Shown here: positions 47,882 through 59,908 of the stretch, piece after piece
Layout of the letters: each line of letters starts with the position of its first letter
Numbering within the stretch: the stretch's first letter is position 1
NCBI GenBank assembly: GCA_019931105.1
Contig: JAIOUW010000001.1
Coordinates: 1,116,001-1,180,000 of the forward strand
Origin: Flavobacteriaceae bacterium NBU2977
GTDB lineage: Bacteria > Bacteroidota > Bacteroidia > Flavobacteriales > Flavobacteriaceae
Direction of reading: 5' to 3'
DNA: 64,000 bases
Program-made: the position numbers and the translations under genes
The notes under the pieces: model-generated
What the model saw: only the letters and a program-made list of their open reading frames with translations
Database searches by the model: none
Told to the model about the DNA's origin: nothing

Positions 47882-47958
47882 TAACATTTAAGTAACAATA
47901 TCACAATATCGATTTAATAAACACCTAACACACGCTTTACAACGCCTTGGTTTCTTTG
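47882..47958 (+). promoter_or_regulatory. Tandem 11-bp-phased half-sites (Pho-box-like) and -7 core before the TBDR gene
   Basis: Seven-base units start at 47882, 47893, 47904, 47915, 47926 and 47937, always 11 bp apart: TAACATT, TAACAAT, CAATATC, TAATAAA, TAACACA, TTACAAC. The third and fourth are weak. The last ends at 47943, and after 11 bp comes TTTG (47955-47958, within TTTCTTTG), the core of the Bacteroidota -7 element. This is the direct-repeat plan of PhoB/PhoP sites. The start codon is 33 bp further on. Confidence 0.6.
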
Positions 47959-47991
47959 CTGCGGTATTTAAAAACATAGTAAAACAAACTA

Positions 47992-50796
47992 ATGAAACGA
48001 TTTTTTTTGAGTCTGCTCATTTTAGCAGCAATGCATTCAAATGCACAGGATAACGGCAGCATTGCCGGAAAAATTACCGACAAAGAAGTGAATAACGAAC
48101 CTCTACCTTTTGCCAATATCTTGATCAAGGGAACGACCAAAGGAACCACCTCTGATTTTGACGGGTTATATGAAATAGCCGATTTAGAAGCAGGTACCTA
48201 TACAGTGGTCTACAGTTTTGTGGGATACGAAACCGTTGAACTGCCGAATATAGCCGTTGTAGCAGGCAAGGTGACCACCGTCGACCTGGGCATGGCCGCC
48301 AATGAAGGTGTATCGCTAGACGAAGTCGTCGTAACTACCGTGGCACGCAAAGATTCTGAAGTAGCCTTATTGCTCGATCAGAAAAAAGCGGTCGAAATAA
48401 AAGAAAGTATCGGTGCCCAACAATTGGGCAAGATCGGAGTGTCAGATGTTGCCACCGCAACCACTAAAATTTCCGGAGTATCCAGTAGTGAAGCATCAGG
48501 CGATGTTTTTGTTCGTGGGCTCGGAGACAGGTATTTGATTACTACATTAAATGGTCTTCCCGTGCCTTCCGATGATGTGGAGAAAAAGAATATAGATCTG
48601 GGGCTTTTTCCTACTAGGGTCATTCAGAATGTAAGCGTGAGCAAGACCTATTCGACACAAACATCGGCAGATCAATCATCGGGCAACATCAATATTAGTT
48701 CTCGAGAACTTTCCGGCTCAAGTGAGTTGAGCTTCGGCCTGCAAACGGGTATCAATTCGAACGTTGCCAAGAGTGGTGTTTATGATGACTTTAAAGTATC
48801 ACGGAATTCTGCGAATACCGATTTTGGCTTCTATGCCCAGAACCGTACAACCCAAGAACTTATTACGCAGCAAGGTTGGAACACCGTACAAAAGGAAAAT
48901 CCAATCGATTACAGCTTCAATTTTGTGGCCGGAAAAAAAATCAAGGAAAGGTTCGCCGCCCTTTTAACGGCATCGCACAATACCTCGCATACCTATGGTC
49001 AAGGTCTTTTTAGGCAATTCCGCTCTAACTTTATCGATGATACCATTACCGATGCGACCAATTTTAACAGAAGGGCTGTTACCTCTGCATTGCTCGATTT
49101 TAGCTTCTTTGCCAACGACAAAAACAAACTAAAATCATCTACCTTCTTTATCAATACTACCAACGACGAGGTTTATGAAGGAGGGCGCAATGGCGAAGGA
49201 ACCATTTTTGAGGAGACTGATGTCAACGAGGCCTTTCAGTTTGTTAGAGATCAAAATATCAAGCAGACACGTTTGTTGGTGACCCAACTTTTAGGCACAC
49301 ATAAGCTTGGCGAAAAAAACAGCCTAGAATGGGCGGGTGGCTACAACAGCGTAAATGCCGACGAACCGAACCGAATACGAAACGAAGTCAATATCATGAA
49401 TGATGACGGCCGTATTCAATTGGGAAGAACCGGTGGATTTCAACAACGAAAATCGAAACAAGAAATAGCCGATAAAGAATTTAGCGGTTATCTAAAAGAT
49501 GTTTTACAGCTTATCGATGAAGAAGAAAAATCATTTAAGGTAGAACTTGGAATCAATTACCGAAACAAAGAGAGAGATTTTTTCTCTCAGTTCATCGGTG
49601 TCGAAGAGCGCGCTACTGACGTCATCAATCCGCCTTCGATCGATAATTTGGGCAGTATCTTTCAACAAGGCAATTTCGATAATGGATTGCTTGAGTTCAA
49701 CATTTTACAACCCGACCTTTATAATGGCAAATTGATTTCCCAAGCGGCGTTTGCAGATTTCAATGTAGGATTGGGCAAATGGAATTTCAACGCCGGCTTA
49801 CGTTACCAAAAAGATGAGATCAAAGTCAGTTTCGATGTAGGCAACTTTTCTGGAAGGATCGGCGAATCGGTCAAGGAATATAACAACCTTTATCCAAGTC
49901 TTAACGTCAAGTACGACATTAACGATAAAAATGGCCTAAGATTGGCCGTTAGCCGTACGATTACCTTACCCGAGTTCAAGGAAATATCACCATTTGAATA
50001 CGTCTCGCAGACAGGACAGGTGACTCGAGGTAATCCTGACCTAGAAGCGTCACGAGATTTAAACTATGACCTGAAATGGGAATATTTTCCATCCAATGGA
50101 CAATTGATATCGTTAGCGGCATTCTATAAAGACATTTCAGACCCTATCAACAAGGTCCAAGATAGAGGTTCGGCAGGTGTGTTTTCTTTTTTCAACTCAG
50201 GCGAAAAAGCGGAAATCTATGGATTCGAAGCGGAAACAAAAATCGACCTTGTTTCGCCGATAACCAATGAGGAAGATGGAAGCATGTCGGGTTACGGCCT
50301 TAATCTAGTCTTTAACGCTACCAGAATGTGGCATACGCAAGACTTGAAGGAGGTACGTGACGAAAATGGAAATTTCATAAGAACCTTTAGATATAATGGG
50401 CTTACGGAAACAGGACTTCAAGGAGCTTCCGATTGGATCGTCAATACAAGTTTGAACTTCAACACCGCTGGAGAAAATTCGTTTAACGCATCGTTAACCG
50501 CAAACTATGCCTCGGATAAAATCTTTGCACTAGGTGCTCCAGAAATACAAAGTCAGAGCGAGACTTTTTACAATGATGCCATTGTTGAAAAAGGGTTTGT
50601 TGTACTCGATGCTGTAATCAGTAAAGAGTTTGGCGAACACTGGAGAGTTCGTCTGATCGGCAGAAACCTACTTAATCCTGAAATCAAAAGAACCCAATTG
50701 GTCAAACCGAGCACGACCAATCTTGAAACCGAAGAAATTGTACGCTCCTATACAGCTGGATCACAGCTTAGATTAGGTATCAATTATACATTTTAG
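47992..50796 (+). CDS. TonB-dependent outer-membrane receptor, probably phosphate-regulated
   Basis: A 934-residue receptor with a signal peptide (LILAAMHSNAQ), a carboxypeptidase-regulatory-like domain at about 20-105 (GSIAGKITDKEVNNEPLPFA, then TSDFDGLYEIADLEAGTYT), a TonB-box-like SLDEVVVTTVA and a plug with GDVFVRGLGDRYLITTLNGLPVPSDD, a pattern known from larger TBDRs of the Caulobacter/Xanthomonas type. The barrel ends RLGINYTF. There is no SusD partner; a large duplicated lipoprotein gene follows 41 bp downstream. Pho-box-like repeats upstream and the phosphate transport genes that follow suggest that it takes up a phosphorus-containing compound; the ligand is unknown. Confidence 0.92.
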   Translation: MKRFFLSLLILAAMHSNAQDNGSIAGKITDKEVNNEPLPFANILIKGTTKGTTSDFDGLYEIADLEAGTYTVVYSFVGYETVELPNIAVVAGKVTTVDLGMAANEGVSLDEVVVTTVARKDSEVALLLDQKKAVEIKESIGAQQLGKIGVSDVATATTKISGVSSSEASGDVFVRGLGDRYLITTLNGLPVPSDDVEKKNIDLGLFPTRVIQNVSVSKTYSTQTSADQSSGNINISSRELSGSSELSFGLQTGINSNVAKSGVYDDFKVSRNSANTDFGFYAQNRTTQELITQQGWNTVQKENPIDYSFNFVAGKKIKERFAALLTASHNTSHTYGQGLFRQFRSNFIDDTITDATNFNRRAVTSALLDFSFFANDKNKLKSSTFFINTTNDEVYEGGRNGEGTIFEETDVNEAFQFVRDQNIKQTRLLVTQLLGTHKLGEKNSLEWAGGYNSVNADEPNRIRNEVNIMNDDGRIQLGRTGGFQQRKSKQEIADKEFSGYLKDVLQLIDEEEKSFKVELGINYRNKERDFFSQFIGVEERATDVINPPSIDNLGSIFQQGNFDNGLLEFNILQPDLYNGKLISQAAFADFNVGLGKWNFNAGLRYQKDEIKVSFDVGNFSGRIGESVKEYNNLYPSLNVKYDINDKNGLRLAVSRTITLPEFKEISPFEYVSQTGQVTRGNPDLEASRDLNYDLKWEYFPSNGQLISLAAFYKDISDPINKVQDRGSAGVFSFFNSGEKAEIYGFEAETKIDLVSPITNEEDGSMSGYGLNLVFNATRMWHTQDLKEVRDENGNFIRTFRYNGLTETGLQGASDWIVNTSLNFNTAGENSFNASLTANYASDKIFALGAPEIQSQSETFYNDAIVEKGFVVLDAVISKEFGEHWRVRLIGRNLLNPEIKRTQLVKPSTTNLETEEIVRSYTAGSQLRLGINYTF

Positions 50797-50837
50797 AGAA
50801 CCCACAACTAATGAATTAACATTTAAAACTGAAAATT

Positions 50838-52883
50838 ATGAAACTGAAAACGATTAGATTTTTTTCATTGTTCGCTGCCGTGCTTGCATTTACCCTTGTA
50901 AGTTGTAGTGACGACGACAACTCGCCCGACCCTGGGCCGATTCTTCCAGATGCTACCTGCGACGACGGAGTTAAGAATGGTGATGAGACGGGTGTAGATT
51001 GTGGCGGTAGCTGCAGTAACTCGTGCGATACCCCGACCGAGGGCACCGAACTAAGTGGCAGCCAAACTGATGATTTGACCTTAGACCCGACCAAGACCTA
51101 TACTTTGACAGGTACTTATAGTATTGAATCTGGTGCTACCTTGACAATTCCTGCGGGAACAATGATTGTTGCCGATTCAGGTACCGATATATATATCGTG
51201 GTGAAAAAAGGTGGAAAAATCGATGTGCAAGGTACTTCAGCCGCACCTGTAGTAATGACCTCGGCCAATGAGACTCCTGGGGATTGGGGCGGTTTGGTCA
51301 TAGCCGGTAACGCGACGACCACCGAGGGTGTCAATGCCGTTGCCGAAGTGGGCGGAATCGTTTATGGCGGTAGCGACGATACCGATAACTCAGGTTCGAT
51401 CAGTTATTTGATCATCAACTACGCCGGGGCGCAGATTAATTCTGAATCTCAGTATAATGGTTTGACACTATACGCCGTTGGTTCAGGAACCACAATCGAT
51501 AATGTCGCCATTTTGAACGGAACTGACGATGGTGTCGAATTTTTTGGCGGTACCGTAAGTGCCAGTAACTTCTATTTGGAAAACAATGAGGATGATGCCG
51601 TTGATTGGACGGAAGGATGGAACGGAACCTTGACCAATACCTATGTTTTGCATACCAATGCCGGATTTTCAACTGCTATAGAGGCCGATGGGGCAAATAA
51701 TAATCCGACCATAGTGAACTTCACGGCTGTCTCTACGCAGGGTGGAACTGCACTACAGTTCAAAAAAGAATCAGGTGCAACTATAACGGGTCTTTCACTG
51801 ACCGGATATGAAATTTCGGTCGATATGAAGGATAATGGCCCATTGACAAATGTACAAATCGATGGTTCTGACGCTGATCCCGCCCTGACCTACCTAGCAG
51901 ATGCCTCTGTCGATGCTTCCGCTTTTGCTTGGGTCGATACCGACAATCAAGTAACCATCATGTCATTGGAAGGCACACTGACCGAAGATATGACGTTGAA
52001 CGCTAATACTATTTACAATCTGAACGGAAGTCTTAGCGTCGAAAGCGGTGCTAAGTTGACCATTCCGGCTGGTACGGTCATTATCGCCGATGCCGATAGC
52101 GGTACAGAGACCGACACCTATATCGTAATCAAGAAAGGGGCTCAAATAGATGTACAAGGTACGGCCGCCGACCCAGTGGTCATGACCTCTACGAATCAAA
52201 GTCCCGGTGATTGGGGCGGACTTGTAATCCTTGGTGATGCAACGACCACCGAAGGGGTAGACGCGATTGCGGAAGTTGGTGGCTTTACCTATGGTGGAAC
52301 CAACGACGAAGATAACTCAGGTAACATCAGTTACTTGATAATCAACTATGCCGGGGCACAAATCAACTCAGAATCACAGTATAACGGACTTACCTTATAT
52401 GCTGTTGGGTCAGGAACGACCGTTGAAAACGTGGCAATTTTGAACGGTACCGATGATGGTGTCGAGTTTTTTGGAGGTACGGTAAGTGCATCAAATTTCT
52501 ATCTGGAGGACAATGAAGATGATGCCGTCGACTGGACAGAAGGATGGACAGGCACTTTGACCAACACTTATGTGCTGCACGAAAATGCCGGTTTCTCAAC
52601 TGCTATCGAGGCCGATGGTGTCGATGCTGCAGTAGGTGTCCCCACAATTGTCAATTTCACCGCAGTATCTACAGCCGATGGTACCGCACTTCAGTTTAAG
52701 AAAACAACGGGGGCCACAATGACCAATGTATCGCTTTCAGGATATACAACCAATGTCGATATGAAAGACGGTGGACCGGTGGGCAACATAACTGTTGATG
52801 GCACGGCATTGACAAGTGTCGATGATGATGTATTTAACGGCACTGTAGTCGATATTACTATGTTTGATTGGGCCAACGACTAA
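50838..52883 (+). CDS. Surface lipoprotein with two duplicated beta-helix-like domains
   Basis: A 681-residue lipoprotein: lipobox LVSC (cysteine 23) and acidic SDDDNS, then a cysteine-rich motif CDDGVKNGDETGVDCGGSCSNSC. Two homologous domains follow, about residues 68-340 and 365-675. Each begins with a TYxLxGxxSxESGAxLTIPAGT segment and contains shared blocks such as PGDWGGLV, ISYLIINYAGAQINSESQYN, GTDDGVEFFGG and NEDDAVDWTEGW. The short regular turns resemble a right-handed parallel beta-helix. No catalytic site is recognised. It lies 41 bp after the TBDR gene and is probably its surface partner, in the place where a SusD would be. Confidence 0.85.
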   Translation: MKLKTIRFFSLFAAVLAFTLVSCSDDDNSPDPGPILPDATCDDGVKNGDETGVDCGGSCSNSCDTPTEGTELSGSQTDDLTLDPTKTYTLTGTYSIESGATLTIPAGTMIVADSGTDIYIVVKKGGKIDVQGTSAAPVVMTSANETPGDWGGLVIAGNATTTEGVNAVAEVGGIVYGGSDDTDNSGSISYLIINYAGAQINSESQYNGLTLYAVGSGTTIDNVAILNGTDDGVEFFGGTVSASNFYLENNEDDAVDWTEGWNGTLTNTYVLHTNAGFSTAIEADGANNNPTIVNFTAVSTQGGTALQFKKESGATITGLSLTGYEISVDMKDNGPLTNVQIDGSDADPALTYLADASVDASAFAWVDTDNQVTIMSLEGTLTEDMTLNANTIYNLNGSLSVESGAKLTIPAGTVIIADADSGTETDTYIVIKKGAQIDVQGTAADPVVMTSTNQSPGDWGGLVILGDATTTEGVDAIAEVGGFTYGGTNDEDNSGNISYLIINYAGAQINSESQYNGLTLYAVGSGTTVENVAILNGTDDGVEFFGGTVSASNFYLEDNEDDAVDWTEGWTGTLTNTYVLHENAGFSTAIEADGVDAAVGVPTIVNFTAVSTADGTALQFKKTTGATMTNVSLSGYTTNVDMKDGGPVGNITVDGTALTSVDDDVFNGTVVDITMFDWAND

Positions 52884-52908
52884 GGGTCGGGTTTGATTAA
52901 ATACCACT

Positions 52909-52938
52909 GAAAGCCCCGCCTTCGGCGGGGCTTTCTTT
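52909..52938 (+). terminator. Strong terminator after the beta-helix lipoprotein gene
   Basis: GAAAGCCCCGCC (52909-52920) pairs perfectly with GGCGGGGCTTTC (52924-52935) around the loop TTC; the tail is TTTG. Confidence 0.8.
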
Positions 52939-53089
52939 GACATATTGGGGCGGGCCGCAAGTGATTTTCCTGATAAATTTCATTGAAAAGTAATGGCGTT
53001 ATAACCCAAACCTTACCTACAAATAATCTATGCTTAACCTAAACTTTACTTTGCTGGGTTTTCTTTGTATTCGTAATCTTAGATTCGAT

Positions 53090-53491
53090 ATGAAAAAACT
53101 AGGTCTAATTTTTATTTTAATGATCTCTATAAGTCTGTCGGCCCAAGAAAAAGGTAGCGTACAGGGTAAGATTATCGATTTGGAGGGTAATAACGAGCCT
53201 TTGCTTATGGCCGAAGTTCAAATCAAGGATACCGAATTCAAGACCATGACCAACTTTAACGGCAATTTTAAGATCGAGGGAATCGAACCTGGTTCATACA
53301 CTATGACAGTACGTTTCTTAGGTTACGAAAGTATAGAGCTTCCGGTTGAGGTTACGGCAAATGAAACGGTACGGATCGAAAGTGGCCTCAAAGCACAAAC
53401 ATTGGATCTAAGCGATATCTCCGCTTTGATTTTTGCCGATGCGGAGACCGCCTCGTCAGTCGCCAGCATTGAAAAAGAACAAAAAAAGTAG
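53090..53491 (+). CDS. Orphan carboxypeptidase-regulatory-like domain protein (TBDR N-terminal domain without barrel)
   Basis: A 133-residue secreted protein (signal MKKLGLIFILMISISLSAQ). The single domain (GSVQGKIIDLEGNNEPLLMAEVQIKD, then NFNGNFKIEGIEPGSYTMTVRFLGYESIELPVEV) is clearly like the N-terminal domain of the TBDR at 47992, but there is no plug or barrel and the frame stops cleanly after IEKEQKK. The ATG at 53090 is preferred, since upstream residues do not fit a signal. It may interact with the TonB system or be a shortened paralogue. It is separated from the lipoprotein gene by a terminator, so it may have its own promoter. Confidence 0.85.
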   Translation: MKKLGLIFILMISISLSAQEKGSVQGKIIDLEGNNEPLLMAEVQIKDTEFKTMTNFNGNFKIEGIEPGSYTMTVRFLGYESIELPVEVTANETVRIESGLKAQTLDLSDISALIFADAETASSVASIEKEQKK

Positions 53492-53502
53492 CACATTTAA
53501 CC

Positions 53503-53542
53503 ATAAAAAAGCCTCCATGTATTTTCATGGAGGCTTTTTTAT
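53503..53542. terminator. Two-way terminator between the orphan-domain and MORN-repeat genes
   Basis: AAAAAAGCCTCCATG (53505-53519) pairs perfectly with CATGGAGGCTTTTTT (53526-53540), with two more pairs outside; loop TATTTT. A and T runs make it work on both strands, which suits the converging genes. Confidence 0.9.
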
Positions 53543-53567
53543 TTAAGTCCGTTATTTTTAAAGAATG

Positions 53568-53927
53568 TCAATCTTTGGTTACCACCCTCGATTTGCTTTC
53601 TTTATCGATAACACTCGCGATTATGTTATTATCGAATACAACTTCTTTCATCTTGCCATCTTCCCAAAACAGCCACTTTCCTGTTTTAACGCCCTTTTCA
53701 TAAGAACCTTCCGAGGTCTTGTCGCCAGCATCATTATAGCTTACCCAATCTCCTTGAAGTTTCCCTGCCAGGTCAAAAGTGCCTTTTTGACTTACCTGTC
53801 CATTTTCATGAAAATAAGTAGCCTCGATTAGATTGGTCTCTTTGTTCAATTTGATTTCTTTCTTTTGTTGGGCAAAAGAGGCGGAGACCATAAATGAAAC
53901 AACAATTAATAAAACATATTTTTTCAT
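53568..53927 (-). CDS. Secreted MORN-type repeat protein (YwqK-like)
   Basis: A 119-residue protein with a signal peptide (LLIVVSFMVSASFAQ). Three MORN_2-type repeats are visible: EATYFHENGQVSQKGTFDLAGKLQGDW, VSYNDAGDKTSEGSYEKGVKTGKW and LFWEDGKMKEVVFDN. Such proteins are often labelled YwqK-family antitoxins, but that name is not a proven function here and no toxin gene is adjacent. The family is common in Bacteroidota. The gene reads away from the phosphate genes and shares a two-way terminator with the orphan-domain gene. Confidence 0.85.
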   Translation of the reverse strand: MKKYVLLIVVSFMVSASFAQQKKEIKLNKETNLIEATYFHENGQVSQKGTFDLAGKLQGDWVSYNDAGDKTSEGSYEKGVKTGKWLFWEDGKMKEVVFDNNIIASVIDKESKSRVVTKD

Positions 53928-53979
53928 GACAAACGCGCTATTATAAGTTCATATATACCAAATAAAGGTAAAAAATAAT

Positions 53980-54036
53980 TTACACTATATCAACACTTAC
54001 ATAACGTTAAATTTACATTCAAATTGTAACATCTTG
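53980..54036 (+). promoter_or_regulatory. Tandem 11-bp-phased half-sites (Pho-box-like) before a candidate small RNA
   Basis: Units start at 53980, 53991, 54002 and 54013: TTACACT, CAACACT, TAACGTT, TTACATT, each with a 4-base spacer. The pair TAACGTT/TTACATT is the same as that before the second pit gene. The array reads to the right, away from the MORN gene. A CTTG at 54033-54036, 13 bp after the last unit, is the only -7-like core. No protein gene follows until 54306. Confidence 0.5.
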
Positions 54037-54042
54037 AAAAAC

Positions 54043-54227
54043 AATGAAAAACCGTTTTCTAAAAAAACTTAATGATTACTTAATATTAGAATTACCATAA
54101 GATTATGTTGGAAAGCGATTTTTGTCTGTCATTACTAAAATAAACGGATTTCTTTTTGGATATTAGTTTTTGTCGACTATTCTTAGAGATCCCGAAGCTA
54201 CCTTTCTCAAGGTAGCTTCTTTTGTTT
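54043..54227 (+). ncRNA. Candidate phosphate-regulated small RNA
   Basis: The span lies between a Pho-box-like array and a perfect intrinsic terminator, with no protein gene of normal size. The approximate 5' end is inferred from the array; the 3' end is the terminator T tail. Two tiny frames occur (ATG at 54044, 18 codons, peptide MKNRFLKKLNDYLILELP; and a 12-codon frame near 54104), so a short peptide mRNA is an alternative. No known RNA family is recognised. Confidence 0.35.
54194..54227 (+). terminator. Strong terminator inside the region before oprP
   Basis: GAAGCTACCTT (54194-54204) pairs perfectly with AAGGTAGCTTC (54209-54219) around the loop TCTC, followed by TTTTGTTT. It reads on the plus strand only, although the nearest plus-strand gene upstream already has its own terminator. 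Something must therefore be transcribed between the two. Confidence 0.85.
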
Positions 54228-54238
54228 ATGACAAGATA

Positions 54239-54282
54239 TAACATTTAGGAAACATTAACTTAACATTGAGGTGGGTTCTTTG
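54239..54282 (+). promoter_or_regulatory. Tandem Pho-box-like repeats and -7 core before the porin gene
   Basis: TAACATT (54239), AAACATT (54250) and TAACATT (54261) are spaced 11 bp apart with 4-base gaps. The last ends at 54267, and after 11 bp TTTG (54279-54282, within GTTCTTTG) forms the -7 core. The ATG is 23 bp further. This is the clearest array in the window. Confidence 0.65.
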
Positions 54283-54305
54283 CAGCGACAAAAACTAATA
54301 CCTTA

Positions 54306-55508
54306 ATGAAAATTCTTCGATTGGCCCTTGGGCTATTTTTTCTCGTTTCTGCAAACCTATACGCTCAAGAAAAAAATGCACCGGCTTTTGGAAAAGGGCT
54401 GTTCAACTTGGTTGGAAAAGACAGTTCTTGGAGTATGAAAATCGGTACCCGTATGCAAATTTTGACCGTAGCCGATTGGTCGGAAGGTTCAGATGGCGGC
54501 ATGTCAAATCCACAACAGAACTTCTTGATCCGCAGGGCGCGTCTAAAATTTGACGGGTTTGCATATTCCCCAAAGCTTAAATACAAAATAGAGCTTGGAC
54601 TGTCAAACCGTGATATATCAGGTGGGTCAGAATTTACCCGAAATACGCCACGATATATTCTTGATGCTGTCGTGATGTGGAATTTCTACGAAAATTTCGA
54701 ACTATGGCTGGGCCAGACCAAATTACCCGGCAATATCGAACGGGTAATTTCATCTGGAAACCTTCAGCAGGTCGACCGTTCTTTAGTGAACAGTAGATTT
54801 AATATCGACCGTGATGTAGGTTTTCAATTAAGGCATCACACCCTTTTGGGCAAAAAATTCTTGATGCGCGAAAAACTGGCCTTTTCACAAGGTGAGGGAA
54901 GAAATGTAACCAATGGAAATCTTGGAGGGCACCAATATACGGCAAGGTTGGAATTTTTGCCGTTCGGTGAATTTGTTGGCAAAGGTGATTATAGTGGTAG
55001 TGACCATAAACGCGAAGAAACACCCAAAGTAATGTTCGCGTTCAATTATGATACCAACAAGAATGCGGTCAAAACAAGGAGCAACCTAGGTTCTTATATG
55101 ACCAACGATACGGGGTTTCACGAAACCGACATCAATACTTTTTTCTTTGACGGTATGTTCAAATACAGTGGTTTTTCATTTATGTGGGAATATGCCGACC
55201 GAACTGCGGACGACCCAATTGCAAAAAATTCAGATGGCACCGAGACCGGTGACATTGTCTGGGTCGGTAACGGTCTTAATCTACAAACCGGATATTTATT
55301 TAAGAACAATGTAGAAATATCGGGAAGATATACCAATATCGAACTCGACCAAATTACCGGAAGAAACCCTGAAACCCAATATACTCTTGGTCTATCAAAA
55401 TATATCGTCGGCCACAAACTAAAAGTACAGACAGATTTAAGTTACCTCAAGGTCGATAACGGTTCAGATGAGCTTATGTATCGACTTCAATTGGATGTTC
55501 ATTTTTAG
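54306..55508 (+). CDS. OprO/OprP-family phosphate-selective porin
   Basis: A 400-residue outer-membrane porin with a signal peptide (LFFLVSANLYAQ). WSMKIGTRMQILTVADW, QNFLIRRARLKFDGFAYSPKLKYKIELGLSNRD and FELWLGQTKLPGNIERVISSGNLQQVDRS are characteristic of the porin O/P family, and the chain ends in a barrel-type LQLDVHF. The protein would let phosphate or polyphosphate cross the outer membrane. It is controlled by the Pho-box-like array just upstream and is followed 70 bp later by a PiT transporter gene, so phosphate would pass from porin to inner-membrane carrier. The exact anion selectivity is not proved by sequence. Confidence 0.93.
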   Translation: MKILRLALGLFFLVSANLYAQEKNAPAFGKGLFNLVGKDSSWSMKIGTRMQILTVADWSEGSDGGMSNPQQNFLIRRARLKFDGFAYSPKLKYKIELGLSNRDISGGSEFTRNTPRYILDAVVMWNFYENFELWLGQTKLPGNIERVISSGNLQQVDRSLVNSRFNIDRDVGFQLRHHTLLGKKFLMREKLAFSQGEGRNVTNGNLGGHQYTARLEFLPFGEFVGKGDYSGSDHKREETPKVMFAFNYDTNKNAVKTRSNLGSYMTNDTGFHETDINTFFFDGMFKYSGFSFMWEYADRTADDPIAKNSDGTETGDIVWVGNGLNLQTGYLFKNNVEISGRYTNIELDQITGRNPETQYTLGLSKYIVGHKLKVQTDLSYLKVDNGSDELMYRLQLDVHF

Positions 55509-55578
55509 CATGATAACGATCATTTAAGTTGTAAATTGGTTTTTTCAAATTTGTACCCAGTACCAACCGAACTGAATT

Positions 55579-57846
55579 ATGGATAATATTTACTTTTTAA
55601 TGATCGTTGCCCTGGCCATCTTGGCCATTGCCGATTTAGTTGTGGGGGTCAGTAATGATGCCGTTAATTTCTTAAACTCTGCAATCGGCTCAAAGGCCAT
55701 CTCTTTTCGGTCAATGATGATCGTGGCAAGTCTCGGAATTTTTATTGGAGCCGTTTTTTCAAGCGGTTTAATGGAAGTCGCCCGAAAGGGCATATTCGTT
55801 CCCGGTGAGTTTTATTTTAGCGAGATCATGATCATCTTCATGGCGGTAATGATAACCGATATTCTGTTATTGGATTTTTTCAACACCCTGGGCATGCCAA
55901 CATCCACGACAGTATCGATTGTCTTTGAACTCTTGGGAGCAGCCGTCGCCATGGCATTGATCAAAATAGGTGCCGATAGCGGTTCGATATCTGAATTGTA
56001 TTCCTATATCAATACGGCTAAAGCAACAGAGATTATCCTTGGAATTCTCTTATCGGTCGTTGTGGCTTTTTCGGTAGGCGCGTTTGTACAATACGTTTCA
56101 AGGGCTTTATTATCATTTAATTTTGAAAGAAAATCGAAGTGGGCGGGTGCCATTTTTGGCGGCGTGGCGTTGGCCGCCATTACCTATTTTATTTTTATCA
56201 AAGGATTAAAGGGCACCGATTATTATACTGAGATCAAACCCCTGATCGAAGGTAAAACAGCCATGATAGTGACAATAAGCTTCATAATCTGGACTTTGCT
56301 GTCATATGTCTTAATAAAATTTCTCAAGAAAAACATTTACAAGCTTATTATCGCCGTAGGCACCTTTGCATTGGCCCTGGCCTTTGCAGGCAATGACCTC
56401 GTGAATTTTATCGGGGTGCCCATAGCCGCATGGCAGTCTTATGAAGCTTGGTTGGCCTCAGGTGTTCCGGCGAATGAATTTGCCATGGACGTTCTGGGAA
56501 GCAAGGTGCCGACCCCGACATTGTTTCTCTTGTTTGCCGGTTTGGTAATGGTGTTGACCCTTTGGTTTTCAAGCAAGGCGCGAAGAGTTGTAAAAACTTC
56601 AATAGACCTATCTAGTCAAGAAGAGACCCAAGAGCGCTTCGAGCCTAATTTCCTATCTCGAAATTTGGTCCGGTTTTCCATGCTGGTCTCAAAATATACA
56701 TCCACGGTAATTCCCGTTACAATCCAAGAAAAAATAGAAAAACAGTTCGAAAAACCAGTAATCGAATTACCAAAAGGAAAAATACATGAGCTGCCGGCAT
56801 TTGACATGGTGCGTGCCGCGGTAAACTTAATGGTCGCAAGTGTATTGATTTCTGTGGCAACATCCATGAAATTACCGTTGTCCACTACCTATGTCACTTT
56901 TATGGTCGCCATGGGTACCTCATTGGCCGACAGAGCTTGGGGCAGCGAAAGTGCCGTTTACAGGGTAGCCGGGGTTTTGAACGTAATCGGCGGTTGGTTC
57001 TTTACCGCTCTCAGTGCTTTCGTCGCTGCCGGAACAGTAGCCTATTTGATTCATTTGGGCGGCGGTACCATGATCGCGATGTTATTGTTACTGGCGGTTC
57101 TTCTATTGGTAAGAAACTATATTAGACACAATCAAAGGGCTAAAGTTGTCAAGGCCGAAGATAGTCTGAACAAATCAGAAAGCAGTTCGATACAAGGGGT
57201 AATCGAAGAGAGCGCCGATAACATTTCGAAAGCACTAAAACGGGTAAGTAAAATAAACAATAATACGATCAATGGCTTGATCAATCAAGATTTGGATTCG
57301 CTCAAAAAGGCCAAGTCAATGGTGGTTAAATTAGAAACCGAAATAGAGGAACTGCAAAATGATATCTTTTACTTTATTAAAGATCTAGATGATTCTTACT
57401 TGGGCGCCAGCAAGTTCTATATCGATGTAATCGGAAGTATTCAAGATGTTGCACAATCTTCTAGTCTTATTGCAAAGGTGAGCCATAAGCATGTAAACAA
57501 TAATCACAAGTCACTAAAGAAAAAACAGGCCGAAGAACTGTTGGCTATCAATGAAAAACTCATTCACCTATTTGACCAAATACGCGATGTTTTTGACACG
57601 AGAACCTTCGATAGAATAGTACCGCCAATTATGGAAGAAAAACAGTCTCTTTTGGACGAGGTAACCAATTCGATACAAAAACAGGTCGAACGCACACGAT
57701 TCGAAGAATCAAGTCCGAAAAACACCACTTTGTATTTCAGCATTCTTCTGGAGACAAAAGATTTGATCAAGGCCAATATGAATATTCTGAACTTGTATTA
57801 TGAAGAACATAACCGTTCAAAGGAAATTCTAAGGTCAAATGAATAG
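55579..57846 (+). CDS. PiT-family phosphate transporter with C-terminal PhoU-like domain, copy A
   Basis: A 755-residue protein. Residues 1-530 are a PiT (PHO4) transporter with both inverted signature repeats: GVSNDAVNFLNSAIGSKAIS near 24 and FAGNDLVNFIGVPIAAWQS near 270, and PLSTTYVTFMVAMGTSLADRAWG near 435. Residues 540-745 form a helical PhoU-like domain (AEDSLNKSESSSIQGVIEES; SHKHVNNNHKSLKKKQAEELLAI). It imports phosphate (or metal-phosphate) with protons or sodium. The PhoU part may sense phosphate or regulate transport. The sister gene lies 2 kb away. It follows oprP in the same direction, and converges on nptA. Confidence 0.95.
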   Translation: MDNIYFLMIVALAILAIADLVVGVSNDAVNFLNSAIGSKAISFRSMMIVASLGIFIGAVFSSGLMEVARKGIFVPGEFYFSEIMIIFMAVMITDILLLDFFNTLGMPTSTTVSIVFELLGAAVAMALIKIGADSGSISELYSYINTAKATEIILGILLSVVVAFSVGAFVQYVSRALLSFNFERKSKWAGAIFGGVALAAITYFIFIKGLKGTDYYTEIKPLIEGKTAMIVTISFIIWTLLSYVLIKFLKKNIYKLIIAVGTFALALAFAGNDLVNFIGVPIAAWQSYEAWLASGVPANEFAMDVLGSKVPTPTLFLLFAGLVMVLTLWFSSKARRVVKTSIDLSSQEETQERFEPNFLSRNLVRFSMLVSKYTSTVIPVTIQEKIEKQFEKPVIELPKGKIHELPAFDMVRAAVNLMVASVLISVATSMKLPLSTTYVTFMVAMGTSLADRAWGSESAVYRVAGVLNVIGGWFFTALSAFVAAGTVAYLIHLGGGTMIAMLLLLAVLLLVRNYIRHNQRAKVVKAEDSLNKSESSSIQGVIEESADNISKALKRVSKINNNTINGLINQDLDSLKKAKSMVVKLETEIEELQNDIFYFIKDLDDSYLGASKFYIDVIGSIQDVAQSSSLIAKVSHKHVNNNHKSLKKKQAEELLAINEKLIHLFDQIRDVFDTRTFDRIVPPIMEEKQSLLDEVTNSIQKQVERTRFEESSPKNTTLYFSILLETKDLIKANMNILNLYYEEHNRSKEILRSNE

Positions 57847-57890
57847 ACCCTTACCTTGTTCAAATAGGGTAAGTTGTCAAACTTCATATA

Positions 57891-59636
57891 CTAATCACCG
57901 TTTTCAAGCAAAGAATCTTTGTCGCCATAAAGTAGTTCAGCCACAGAAATTAGATTCTTGATCGTCTCGTTCAAGTTATCCTTATCATTGACCAAAGAAG
58001 AGGCCATCTCTGGTGTGATCAAATTTTCGCTTATTAGTTTATTTATTGATCTTGTAGTCTGGTACTTTCCTTCTTTTGCCGCATGCCTTAGCTTCAGCAA
58101 TTTGGCATAGTGTTCTTCTTTACCATCTTTGGTCCTGAATAAATAGATAATTTGCAAAACCTTGGCCATCTTCTTCCGAAATTTATCATATTGCTTTGCC
58201 ATGTGCTTATTTTCCGAATTCTGATAATTTGAGACATTGATACTTATCTCTAAAACCGCCTTAATAATTTCGACCATCTTACGGTTTGCAATAATGATAT
58301 TTGTGATTTGGTCGTTCTGACTTTTGCCCATCTTTAAGGTGCTTTGGGCGGTTGTGGCATATCTTATTATTTCACCGTAAATAGTTTTGACCTTGTTGTA
58401 ATAAAGATTTCTAACATCGGTGCCAAAATCCTCTTGGGACTTTTTGATGATTTCCTTCGGCTTTAAGTCCGACTTTATATCTTCCCTATGAATGTTCAAT
58501 GCATGGGTCACTATTTCGAAAACCGCGTTCTCATAGAGGTATTTTGACTCTTTGAGAAGTGAAAAAATAACCGTCTCAGGATATTTTATAATCTCCTTGT
58601 TCAAATATTTGGGCTCATCGATCTCTTTTTTTACCTCTAATTTTGATGGCACTAATTTTTCTACGACTTTGGCAATAGGTGCAATGAACCAAACCAGAAT
58701 CAAAGTGTTTGTAATATTAAAAGTGGTGTGAAACAAAGATAAGGCGACCGGAATTGCGGCCGCACTGGCATATGGCGATTCCGCACCCGTTAATGATACC
58801 AGCCATTCTATAATTTTTAAGAACGGATAGAACAATACCAGAACCCAAATAACACCGATTATATTAAAAATCAAGTGGGCCCGTGCCGTGCGTTTCGCAT
58901 GAAAGTTGGCCACAATGGCCGCCAAGTTTGCCGTAATTGTAGTCCCGATGTTCTCCCCCAAAACCATTGCCGCAGCCAATGGAAACGGAATCCAACCTTG
59001 AGCCGTCATGATAAGGGTAAGTGCCATGGTGGCACTTGAGGATTGAATAATGACCGTCAATAGGGTGCCGATGAACAAAAACAATAAAACGGACCAAAAG
59101 CCCAAATCGGTATACCGTTTTAAAAATTCAAGAATTTCAGGATTTTGTCTTATATCGGGTACCGCATCTTTTAAAAATTGCAACCCGATAAACAAGACCG
59201 CAAAGCCGATGATAAAAGTGCCCCAATTCTTTAAATTTTGCTTTTTTGCAAATGTCAGCGCAAAGCCAAGACCTACCAAGGGCAGTGCAATAGTGCTCAT
59301 ACTCACTTTGAAGCCAAGTATTGTAATCAACCATGCCGTAATGGTAGTGCCGATATTGGCCCCCATGATAACGCTAATTGCCTCTGTAAGGGTCAACAAC
59401 GATGCATTCGAAAATCCAACTACCATTAAGGTGGTCGCAGACGAAGATTGAATAATCGATGTAATGAAAAATCCGGTGAATATACCAAATACCCTATTCG
59501 AGGTCATGGTGGCCAGAATTTTCCTCATCTTGTCACCGGCCAAACTCATTAAGGCATCGCTCATGACTTTCATTCCAAAGAGAAATAGCCCGAGCGAACC
59601 TAAAAGTTGAAGAATATCGTAGAAACCGTAATCCAA
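57891..59636 (-). CDS. Na/Pi cotransporter family protein with PhoU-like domain
   Basis: A 581-residue NptA/YjbB-type transporter: LLGSLGLFLFGMKVMSDALMSLAG, then inverted repeats with QSSSAT (in FFITSIIQSSSATTLMVVGF and LLTVIIQSSSATMALTLIM) and GANIGTT/GENIGTT. The C-terminal 230 residues are a PhoU-like helical domain (VTHALNIHREDIKSDLKPKEI; GKSQNDQITNIIIANRKMVEIIK). It moves phosphate with sodium; in some bacteria such proteins export phosphate. The only start that keeps the first helix is TTG at 59636, as an in-frame TAA lies seven codons upstream with no ATG. It sits between the two pit genes on the other strand. Confidence 0.93.
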   Translation of the reverse strand: MDYGFYDILQLLGSLGLFLFGMKVMSDALMSLAGDKMRKILATMTSNRVFGIFTGFFITSIIQSSSATTLMVVGFSNASLLTLTEAISVIMGANIGTTITAWLITILGFKVSMSTIALPLVGLGFALTFAKKQNLKNWGTFIIGFAVLFIGLQFLKDAVPDIRQNPEILEFLKRYTDLGFWSVLLFLFIGTLLTVIIQSSSATMALTLIMTAQGWIPFPLAAAMVLGENIGTTITANLAAIVANFHAKRTARAHLIFNIIGVIWVLVLFYPFLKIIEWLVSLTGAESPYASAAAIPVALSLFHTTFNITNTLILVWFIAPIAKVVEKLVPSKLEVKKEIDEPKYLNKEIIKYPETVIFSLLKESKYLYENAVFEIVTHALNIHREDIKSDLKPKEIIKKSQEDFGTDVRNLYYNKVKTIYGEIIRYATTAQSTLKMGKSQNDQITNIIIANRKMVEIIKAVLEISINVSNYQNSENKHMAKQYDKFRKKMAKVLQIIYLFRTKDGKEEHYAKLLKLRHAAKEGKYQTTRSINKLISENLITPEMASSLVNDKDNLNETIKNLISVAELLYGDKDSLLENGD

Positions 59637-59690
59637 ATCGACTATGATGAACTGTTACATTAAGGTAAATATAAGGTTAATTAATTGTAA
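59634..59690 (-). promoter_or_regulatory. Tandem Pho-box-like repeats before the Na/Pi gene
   Basis: On the minus strand four units run with perfect 11-bp phase: TTACAAT (59690-59684), TAACCTT (59679-59673), TTACCTT (59668-59662) and TAACAGT (59657-59651). TTTG follows at 59637-59634, after 13 bp, not 11 as in three other arrays, and it overlaps the TTG start codon, so the real -7 element and translation start need checking. Confidence 0.55.
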
Positions 59691-59843
59691 ATATTTGAAC
59701 AGTATATGATCGAGGCTCTTTTGAACAATGGCATTATTTAGCCCTTGATGGGCCTTAAATTTTGAAAAACCTCTTTTTATCAATTTCAAGCTCGTTCTAT
59801 TTCATTCCATTCCACAAAATGCCCGTTCAGAATCCTAAATTCA

Positions 59844-59876
59844 TAACGTTTTGGTTACATTGATTGAAAAGATTTG
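59844..59876 (+). promoter_or_regulatory. Pho-box-like repeat pair and -7 core before the second pit gene
   Basis: TAACGTT (59844) and TTACATT (59855) have the 7-4-7 layout. The second ends at 59861 and, after 11 bp, TTTG (59873-59876, within AAGATTTG) forms the -7 core; the ATG is 32 bp further. The geometry equals that of the TBDR and porin promoters. Confidence 0.55.
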
Positions 59877-59908
59877 AAGTAGGTTTGCATCCTTATTTCT
59901 AAGCAGTT

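Follow-up and report, generated by a model that had tools for sequence, protein, structure and literature searches.

Phased repeat arrays and a candidate small RNA upstream of oprP in a putative phosphate-starvation cluster of Flavobacteriaceae

Pho boxes bound by PhoB of Escherichia coli consist of 7-bp units separated by 4 bp and thus have an 11-bp period, and PhoP of Bacillus recognizes TTAACA repeats. Trans-acting enterobacterial small RNAs of the MicF type repress porins; they are short and structured, end in a Rho-independent terminator and pair near the start of the porin mRNA. To our knowledge, few small RNAs with identified targets have been described for Bacteroidota. Here we describe a stretch of 64,000 nucleotides from Flavobacteriaceae bacterium NBU2977 (contig JAIOUW010000001.1, positions 1,116,001 to 1,180,000; hereafter the window), in which direct repeats close to TWACATT accompany the genes for a TonB-dependent receptor (TBDR), a phosphate-selective porin (oprP), nptA and a second pit gene (pit2), and in which a candidate small RNA gene lies directly upstream of oprP. 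Based on comparative sequence analysis of how the arrays are conserved and phased, of the structure and distribution of the RNA, and of compensatory pairing between seed and target, we are fairly confident that this locus represents a phosphate-starvation cluster under an activator of OmpR/PhoB type, with a small RNA that most likely represses oprP.

The closest described systems in Bacteroidota share parts of this arrangement. The phoBR-linked cluster of Flavobacterium johnsoniae, with the loci termed PUS, likewise combines a TonB-dependent transporter and a beta-helix lipoprotein near phoBR and a PF07396 porin. It is strongly phosphate-induced, with transporter Fjoh_0545 and lipoprotein Fjoh_0546, both beside phoBR, up by 8.0 and 9.9 log2 at low phosphate; the main text of that paper uses none of the words motif, promoter or Pho box (PMC8115612). 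For Bacteroides fragilis, which belongs to another order, the accessible part of the PhoB regulon study describes binding of PhoB to the pstC promoter in an electrophoretic mobility shift assay, PhoB dependence of porin O and Pit-like genes, and a 101-fold drop of a Na/Pi transporter at low phosphate in the wild type that a phoB mutant does not show; this part reports neither a binding consensus nor a small RNA (PMC3547664). The small RNA Rfp18 of Flavobacterium psychrophilum is likewise conserved within its family, structured and predicted to act by pairing, but its predicted targets are metalloprotease mRNAs, unlike oprP here (PMC9723704).

The arrays described below resemble the E. coli and Bacillus boxes in being 11-bp tandem direct repeats just upstream of the core promoter, where they are proposed to replace an upstream element. 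They differ in the unit (TWACATT), in a lock of n x 11 bp to TAnnTTTG, in having up to six units and in the reverse-oriented arrays at phoB and orf119. The RNA resembles MicF in being short and structured, with an intrinsic terminator and predicted pairing near the porin mRNA start. Unlike MicF, it would use an apical-loop seed against mRNA positions +1 to about +13-15, it lies directly upstream of its predicted target, and it belongs to Flavobacteriaceae.

Phased arrays and their spacing to the -7 element

The five arrays named in the original prediction were confirmed by direct reading and by scans of the window. Upstream of the TBDR gene, six 11-bp-phased units (47882..47943, plus strand) end 11 bp before the -7 core TTTG (47955..47958, plus strand), the letters from 47882 to 47958 being TAACATT-TAAG-TAACAAT-ATCA-CAATATC-GATT-TAATAAA-CACC-TAACACA-CGCT-TTACAAC-N11-TTTG. 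The oprP gene (54306..55508, plus strand; phosphate-selective porin family, Pfam PF07396, E = 2.3e-9) is preceded by three units at 54239..54267 and a -7 core TTTG at 54279..54282, both on the plus strand (54239-54282: TAACATT-TAGG-AAACATT-AACT-TAACATT-N11-TTTG). Two units, TAACGTT-TTGG-TTACATT, stand before pit2 (59844..59861, plus strand). The array of nptA (59651..59690, minus strand) reads TTACAAT-TAAT-TAACCTT-ATAT-TTACCTT-AATG-TAACAGT, and array 1 (53980..54019, plus strand) comprises four units, TTACACT-ATAT-CAACACT-TACA-TAACGTT-AAAT-TTACATT. When the whole window was scanned with a two-unit matrix, the top seven plus-strand and top three minus-strand matches lay in the five arrays, and all matches of a three-unit scan fell there too; the matrix was derived from the same units, which makes this ranking partly circular and leaves relatives as the fair test. 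Across the NBU2977 genome, seven matches to the three-unit pattern were found when up to three mismatches were allowed, compared to three in the control. Four of the seven lie in this locus, and the oprP array is the single best three-unit site of the genome. With two units and TTTG fixed at N11, one mismatch was reached only by the oprP and pit2 sites.

Relatives were represented by 80 named loci that had been retrieved through their similarity to OprP, a set without F. johnsoniae, and two units scoring at least 13 upstream of a gene were counted as a site. Such sites occurred upstream of oprP in 86%, of pit2 in 88% (59 loci) and of the TBDR gene in 74% (47 upstream regions), against 0.6-2.3% in shuffles (0.6% for the TBDR). 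Among control neighbours in the same relatives, dgt had a two-unit site in 6% and orf239 in 0%. The expected conservation of the arrays in relatives was borne out. Furthermore, two units followed by N11 and TTTG were present in 76% of the 80 oprP promoters and in 0.06% of shuffles. Spacing from unit to unit peaked at 11, 22, 33 and 44 bp for oprP, TBDR, pit2 and nptA, with no such peak at the control orf239, and the distance from unit end to TTTG was mostly 11, 22 or 33 bp at oprP, TBDR and pit2. Specifically, TBDR upstream regions showed 11 bp in 22 loci, 33 bp in 16 and 22 bp in 13, and among the 59 pit2 loci 33 bp was found in 50, 22 bp in 40 and 11 bp in only 5.

The conserved -7 element of pit2 is TAGGTTTG/GATATTTG, in the window TAGGTTTG at 59880..59887 (plus strand), and its TTTG lies 22 bp past the last unit; a TTTG at 11 bp is kept in 5 of 59 loci. 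Because the pit2 element sits at 22 bp, the promoter rule is one of phase (n x 11 bp) and not a fixed 11 bp. The original prediction of a fixed promoter geometry, with the last unit ending exactly 11 bp before TTTG, holds to the letter for the window's TBDR, oprP and pit2 promoters, but the conserved element of pit2 is the next TTTG. The nptA array has no phased -7 element and touches the start codon. The list of five was also incomplete, since it overlooked a sixth array at 54070-54109 that ends 11 bp before the TTTG at 54121-54124.

Two of the arrays point to other modes of regulation. The nptA array ends about 15 bp ahead of the predicted start codon, and in locus L049 (M. halichondriae) the phased nptA units run into the ATG. 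This position against the start codon suggests repression of nptA and fits the fall of the Na/Pi transporter in B. fragilis (PMC3547664). Array 1 was found in 41 of 43 loci, always in plus orientation; its distance to the start of orf119, a divergent gene, is constant (54 bp, sd 5), and that to the small RNA core varies (157 +/- 28). Array 1 had been assigned to a gene-free stretch, whereas it is position-locked to orf119. It was rejected as a promoter of the small RNA on the grounds that only its spacing to orf119 is kept. The product of orf119 (53568-53927) shows a weak MORN-type match and is likely secreted, and the gene is probably an uncharacterised regulon member. Array 1 and the arrays ahead of phoB (see below) are alike reverse-oriented to their gene, which suggests yet other regulatory modes at both. 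A second gene-free phased array, TTACAATTACTTAACGTTAAATTTACATT, was found in the NBU2977 genome (locus L038 6523-6551; C11:194522); it is about 89% identical to array 1 over 35 bp, and no gene lies nearby in its direction.

A candidate small RNA gene and its predicted pairing with the oprP leader

BLAST comparison with relatives revealed conserved non-coding sequence at 53971-54235. The stretch originally regarded as gene-free holds the sixth phased array (array 2, 54070..54109, plus strand; TAATGAT, TAATATT, TTACCAT, TTATGTT), a -7 core TTTG 11 bp past it (54121..54124, plus strand) and a putative small RNA gene of about 95 nt (54129..54226, plus strand, ends inferred; covariance model R1, E = 4e-14). 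Array 2 is the putative promoter-proximal array of this RNA, and array 2 and TTTG stand in the same register in many, but not all, relatives. A stand-alone promoter and an intrinsic terminator (54194..54226, plus strand) thus appear to be both present. In the alignment of the terminator, 94% of cells were paired, six of eight pairs had changed on both sides, and the covariation score was 0.42 compared to 0.24 when shuffled. Applied to the full alignment, automatic consensus folding gave mainly the terminator, and the seed stem was therefore tested by enclosure against shuffles: at least five pairs enclose the core in 59 of 62 sequences (mean 10.8 versus 5.3 in shuffles). The region 54040-54232 had a fold z of -4.45. 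The enclosed apical-loop core, TATTAGTTTTTGTCGACTA (54161..54179, plus strand), lies about 150 bp ahead of oprP in most loci; GTTTTTGTC within it is invariant across alignments, and 54161-54174 constitutes the predicted seed for the oprP leader.

Within Flavobacteriaceae, R1 matched 115 of 149 genera at E <= 0.01 and 66 of 149 at E < 2e-8, usually once per genome. Outside the family, matches were weak and confined to 5 of 247 genomes. No Rfam family reached its gathering score, the only match being a chance one with E = 0.7. In most relatives the 5' part of the RNA (54129-54140) contains a TTAA-centred palindrome (GTCTTAAGAC, GTGTTTAAACAC, GTAATTAATTAC) that varies in sequence yet stays self-complementary, and it is degenerate in the window. 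Second copies of the core were observed between a CarboxypepD_reg gene and orf119 (L053 9257, L054 5930, L097 9256, L104 9205) and possibly represent a paralogous RNA.

The oprP transcript is predicted to start at G54287, as TAnnTTTG is found at -12..-5 relative to the transcript start in F. psychrophilum (PMC9723704) and would occupy -12 to -5 here. Its first letters, GACAAAAACTAATA (54287..54300, plus strand), form the predicted target of the small RNA: CGACAAAAACTAATA, the reverse complement of the core, corresponds to the predicted 5' end of the mRNA, the predicted seed stretch pairing with the leader includes GUUUUUGUC, and GACAAAAACTAAT occurs exactly in the NBU2977 genome only in the oprP leader and, as complement, in the small RNA. 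TTTG-N4-GACAAAAACT was nearly restricted to the oprP/RNA locus in 149 genera, as judged by coordinates.

Seed and leader change together. Over 62 genomes and 13 positions we counted 777 Watson-Crick pairs, 18 G.U, 0 A.C and 11 others; the pairing covers the first ~13-15 nt and drops off upstream of the predicted start. When leaders were shuffled among distinct combinations, pairing fell from 192 to 153, and none of 20,000 shuffles was as high. Position-by-position tests on tree pairs were underpowered, and a pooled swap test was used instead; on phylogenetically independent pairs cognate combinations prevailed over swapped ones by 11:1 with 7 ties (p = 0.006). Compensatory examples include CTTACAG with CTGTAA (L124), TAATGG with TCATTA (L079) and TTAAG with CTTAA (several of L115-L127). 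Leader motif and RNA are also lost together: all ten oprP loci without the motif lacked the RNA as well, and the RNA was never seen at an oprP locus that had no leader (Fisher p = 7e-7, a conservative value as the script missed some true RNAs).

Other genes of the cluster were considered as targets by computing duplex energies for all leaders, and a long contiguous seed was found only at oprP. In some relatives nptA is possibly a second target, its leader carrying full or partial core complement in L106 (10654), L055 (6552) and L062 (15381); the L106 copy is nearly complete and directly upstream of nptA. A highly diverged porin-like gene that OprP tblastn had missed follows the small RNA in L242 (6784-8013) and L243 (5535-6737), with the same array, TTTG and GACAAAAACT leader.

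Regulation of the cluster and alternative readings

These patterns are best explained by a mechanism in which dimers of a PhoB-like protein would bind tandem TWACATT half-sites every 11 bp. At TBDR, oprP, pit2 and the small RNA, an array spaced 11, 22 or 33 bp ahead of TAnnTTTG would stand in for the -33 element, and phosphorylated PhoB would most likely activate all four through such phase-locked arrays; the array on the nptA start may mediate repression. The predicted small RNA would end at its own terminator, present AUUAGUUUUUGUC in its apical loop and cover the first ~13-15 nt of the oprP mRNA up to the AUG, thereby limiting porin synthesis. With one activator on both oprP and its repressor RNA, this would constitute an incoherent feed-forward loop.

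We regard repression of oprP translation as the probable effect of the RNA, though with less confidence than we have in the cluster as a whole. An opposite effect, activation or stabilisation of the oprP mRNA once the RNA has covered its 5' end, seems unlikely but deserves consideration: pairing begins at +1, where a duplex could shield the mRNA from 5'-end decay, both promoters appear to be co-activated, and deletion of Rfp18 in F. psychrophilum lowered two target mRNAs (PMC9723704). However, the predicted pairing spans most of the ~19-nt leader right before the AUG and should block ribosome loading.

Which protein binds the arrays was approached through the regulators of the NBU2977 genome. 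It encodes six proteins with an OmpR-type DNA-binding domain, one of which, at L037 (6224-6910), is a PhoB-like protein of 228 aa followed by a PhoR-like kinase. The PhoB models TIGR02154 and NF053854 are its two best matches, with scores below the equivalog cut-offs (211 vs 296 and 208 vs 270 bits). About 80 bp upstream of its gene lies an 18-bp two-unit site, and reverse-oriented two-unit sites occur ~60-140 bp ahead of phoB in most of 30 relatives. In genome G004 the order pit-oprP-RNA-lipoprotein-TBDR is followed by divergent phoB-phoR, an arrangement that recalls the phoBR-linked cluster of F. johnsoniae. Binding by another OmpR-family regulator, which would make the cluster something other than a PhoB regulon, could draw on the six candidate proteins, the sub-cut-off scores and the array-poor promoters of PhoX-domain genes. 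We consider it improbable, given that the array targets are phosphate genes. PhoB is favoured because arrays precede phoB in most relatives, the G004 cluster adjoins phoB-phoR and the F. johnsoniae homologues are phosphate-induced. A PhoB-type box thus appears to be the best reading of the arrays, with PhoB as the presumed binder.

Very doubtful is cis-acting attenuation, in which transcription from the upstream array would give a long oprP leader containing the element. The element does lie on the same strand ~130 nt upstream, separated by a terminator, but oprP has its own conserved promoter past that terminator. Moreover, in Altibacter lentus (L128) the RNA is 3.2 kb from oprP with pairing kept, G103 and G126 likewise have it apart from oprP as judged by coordinates, and the RNA persists without a downstream oprP in three loci (L229, L235, L244). 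Least credible of all is a DNA operator, with the inverted leader copy serving as a protein site: two inverted copies of one site would co-vary between lineages too, but a duplicated protein site would not prefer G.U over A.C among the non-Watson-Crick pairs, nor end at the predicted transcript start. In addition, this copy is found in the loop of an RNA whose stem is conserved and whose terminator covaries.

Several observations weigh against the interpretation of the locus as a PhoB-controlled cluster with a repressing RNA. PhoX-domain promoters, taken as an independent Pho test, had marginal arrays in only two of eight full-length matches, and the sequences do not support the arrays as the signature of every phosphate gene. 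The OprP transcript of F. johnsoniae was not induced (-1.3 log2, not significant; PMC8115612), although Fjoh_0542 is maybe not the orthologue. Apart from the best few sites, the degenerate pattern does not rise above background in the genome: two units with N11 and TTTG at three mismatches matched 42 times compared to 40 in the control. The units of array 2 are weak, and several relatives lack TTTG at that spot. The benefit of an activator driving oprP together with its repressor is not obvious. Finally, oprP is not the sole constraint on the seed, as intact RNA genes with conserved seed lack a neighbouring oprP in the three loci named above (L229 5530, L235 9080, L244 5921), and G016, G132 and G147 contain a strong RNA copy with no downstream oprP with leader. 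The Pho-type regulon of the original prediction is upheld in part: the phased repeats at phosphate genes are conserved, keep phase with the -7 element and in most relatives also occur ahead of phoB. It is weakened by the mostly array-free PhoX promoters.

Since RNA and seed persist without oprP, the seed presumably has other work or further targets. We lean slightly towards a family-wide, PhoB-driven RNA that would pair with porin mRNA at +1 as an incoherent arm of the Pho response and act on further targets. In G166 (L232 5534) there is a second copy of small RNA and oprP promoter, after which the porin frame breaks off at about 30 codons; this appears to be a duplicated locus that retained the RNA.

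Meaning for Flavobacteriaceae

Both tandem Pho boxes with an 11-bp period and small RNAs directed at porins are already known kinds of elements. We found no defined Pho box for Flavobacteriaceae among the searchable papers, and a literature search returned no paper describing this small RNA, although it might coincide with one of the Rfp RNAs of F. psychrophilum. New are a proposed Flavobacteriaceae Pho box, together with a rule for its phase at TAnnTTTG promoters, and a predicted small RNA family that Rfam does not contain and whose seed, in an apical loop, would act at the target +1. Both are given precise coordinates, namely the unit, its period and its phase relative to TAnnTTTG for the box, and one clearly predicted target for the RNA. 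Phosphorus limitation is ecologically important for marine Bacteroidota, and these features may offer a route to finding Pho promoters, and perhaps other small RNAs aimed at +1, in this group.

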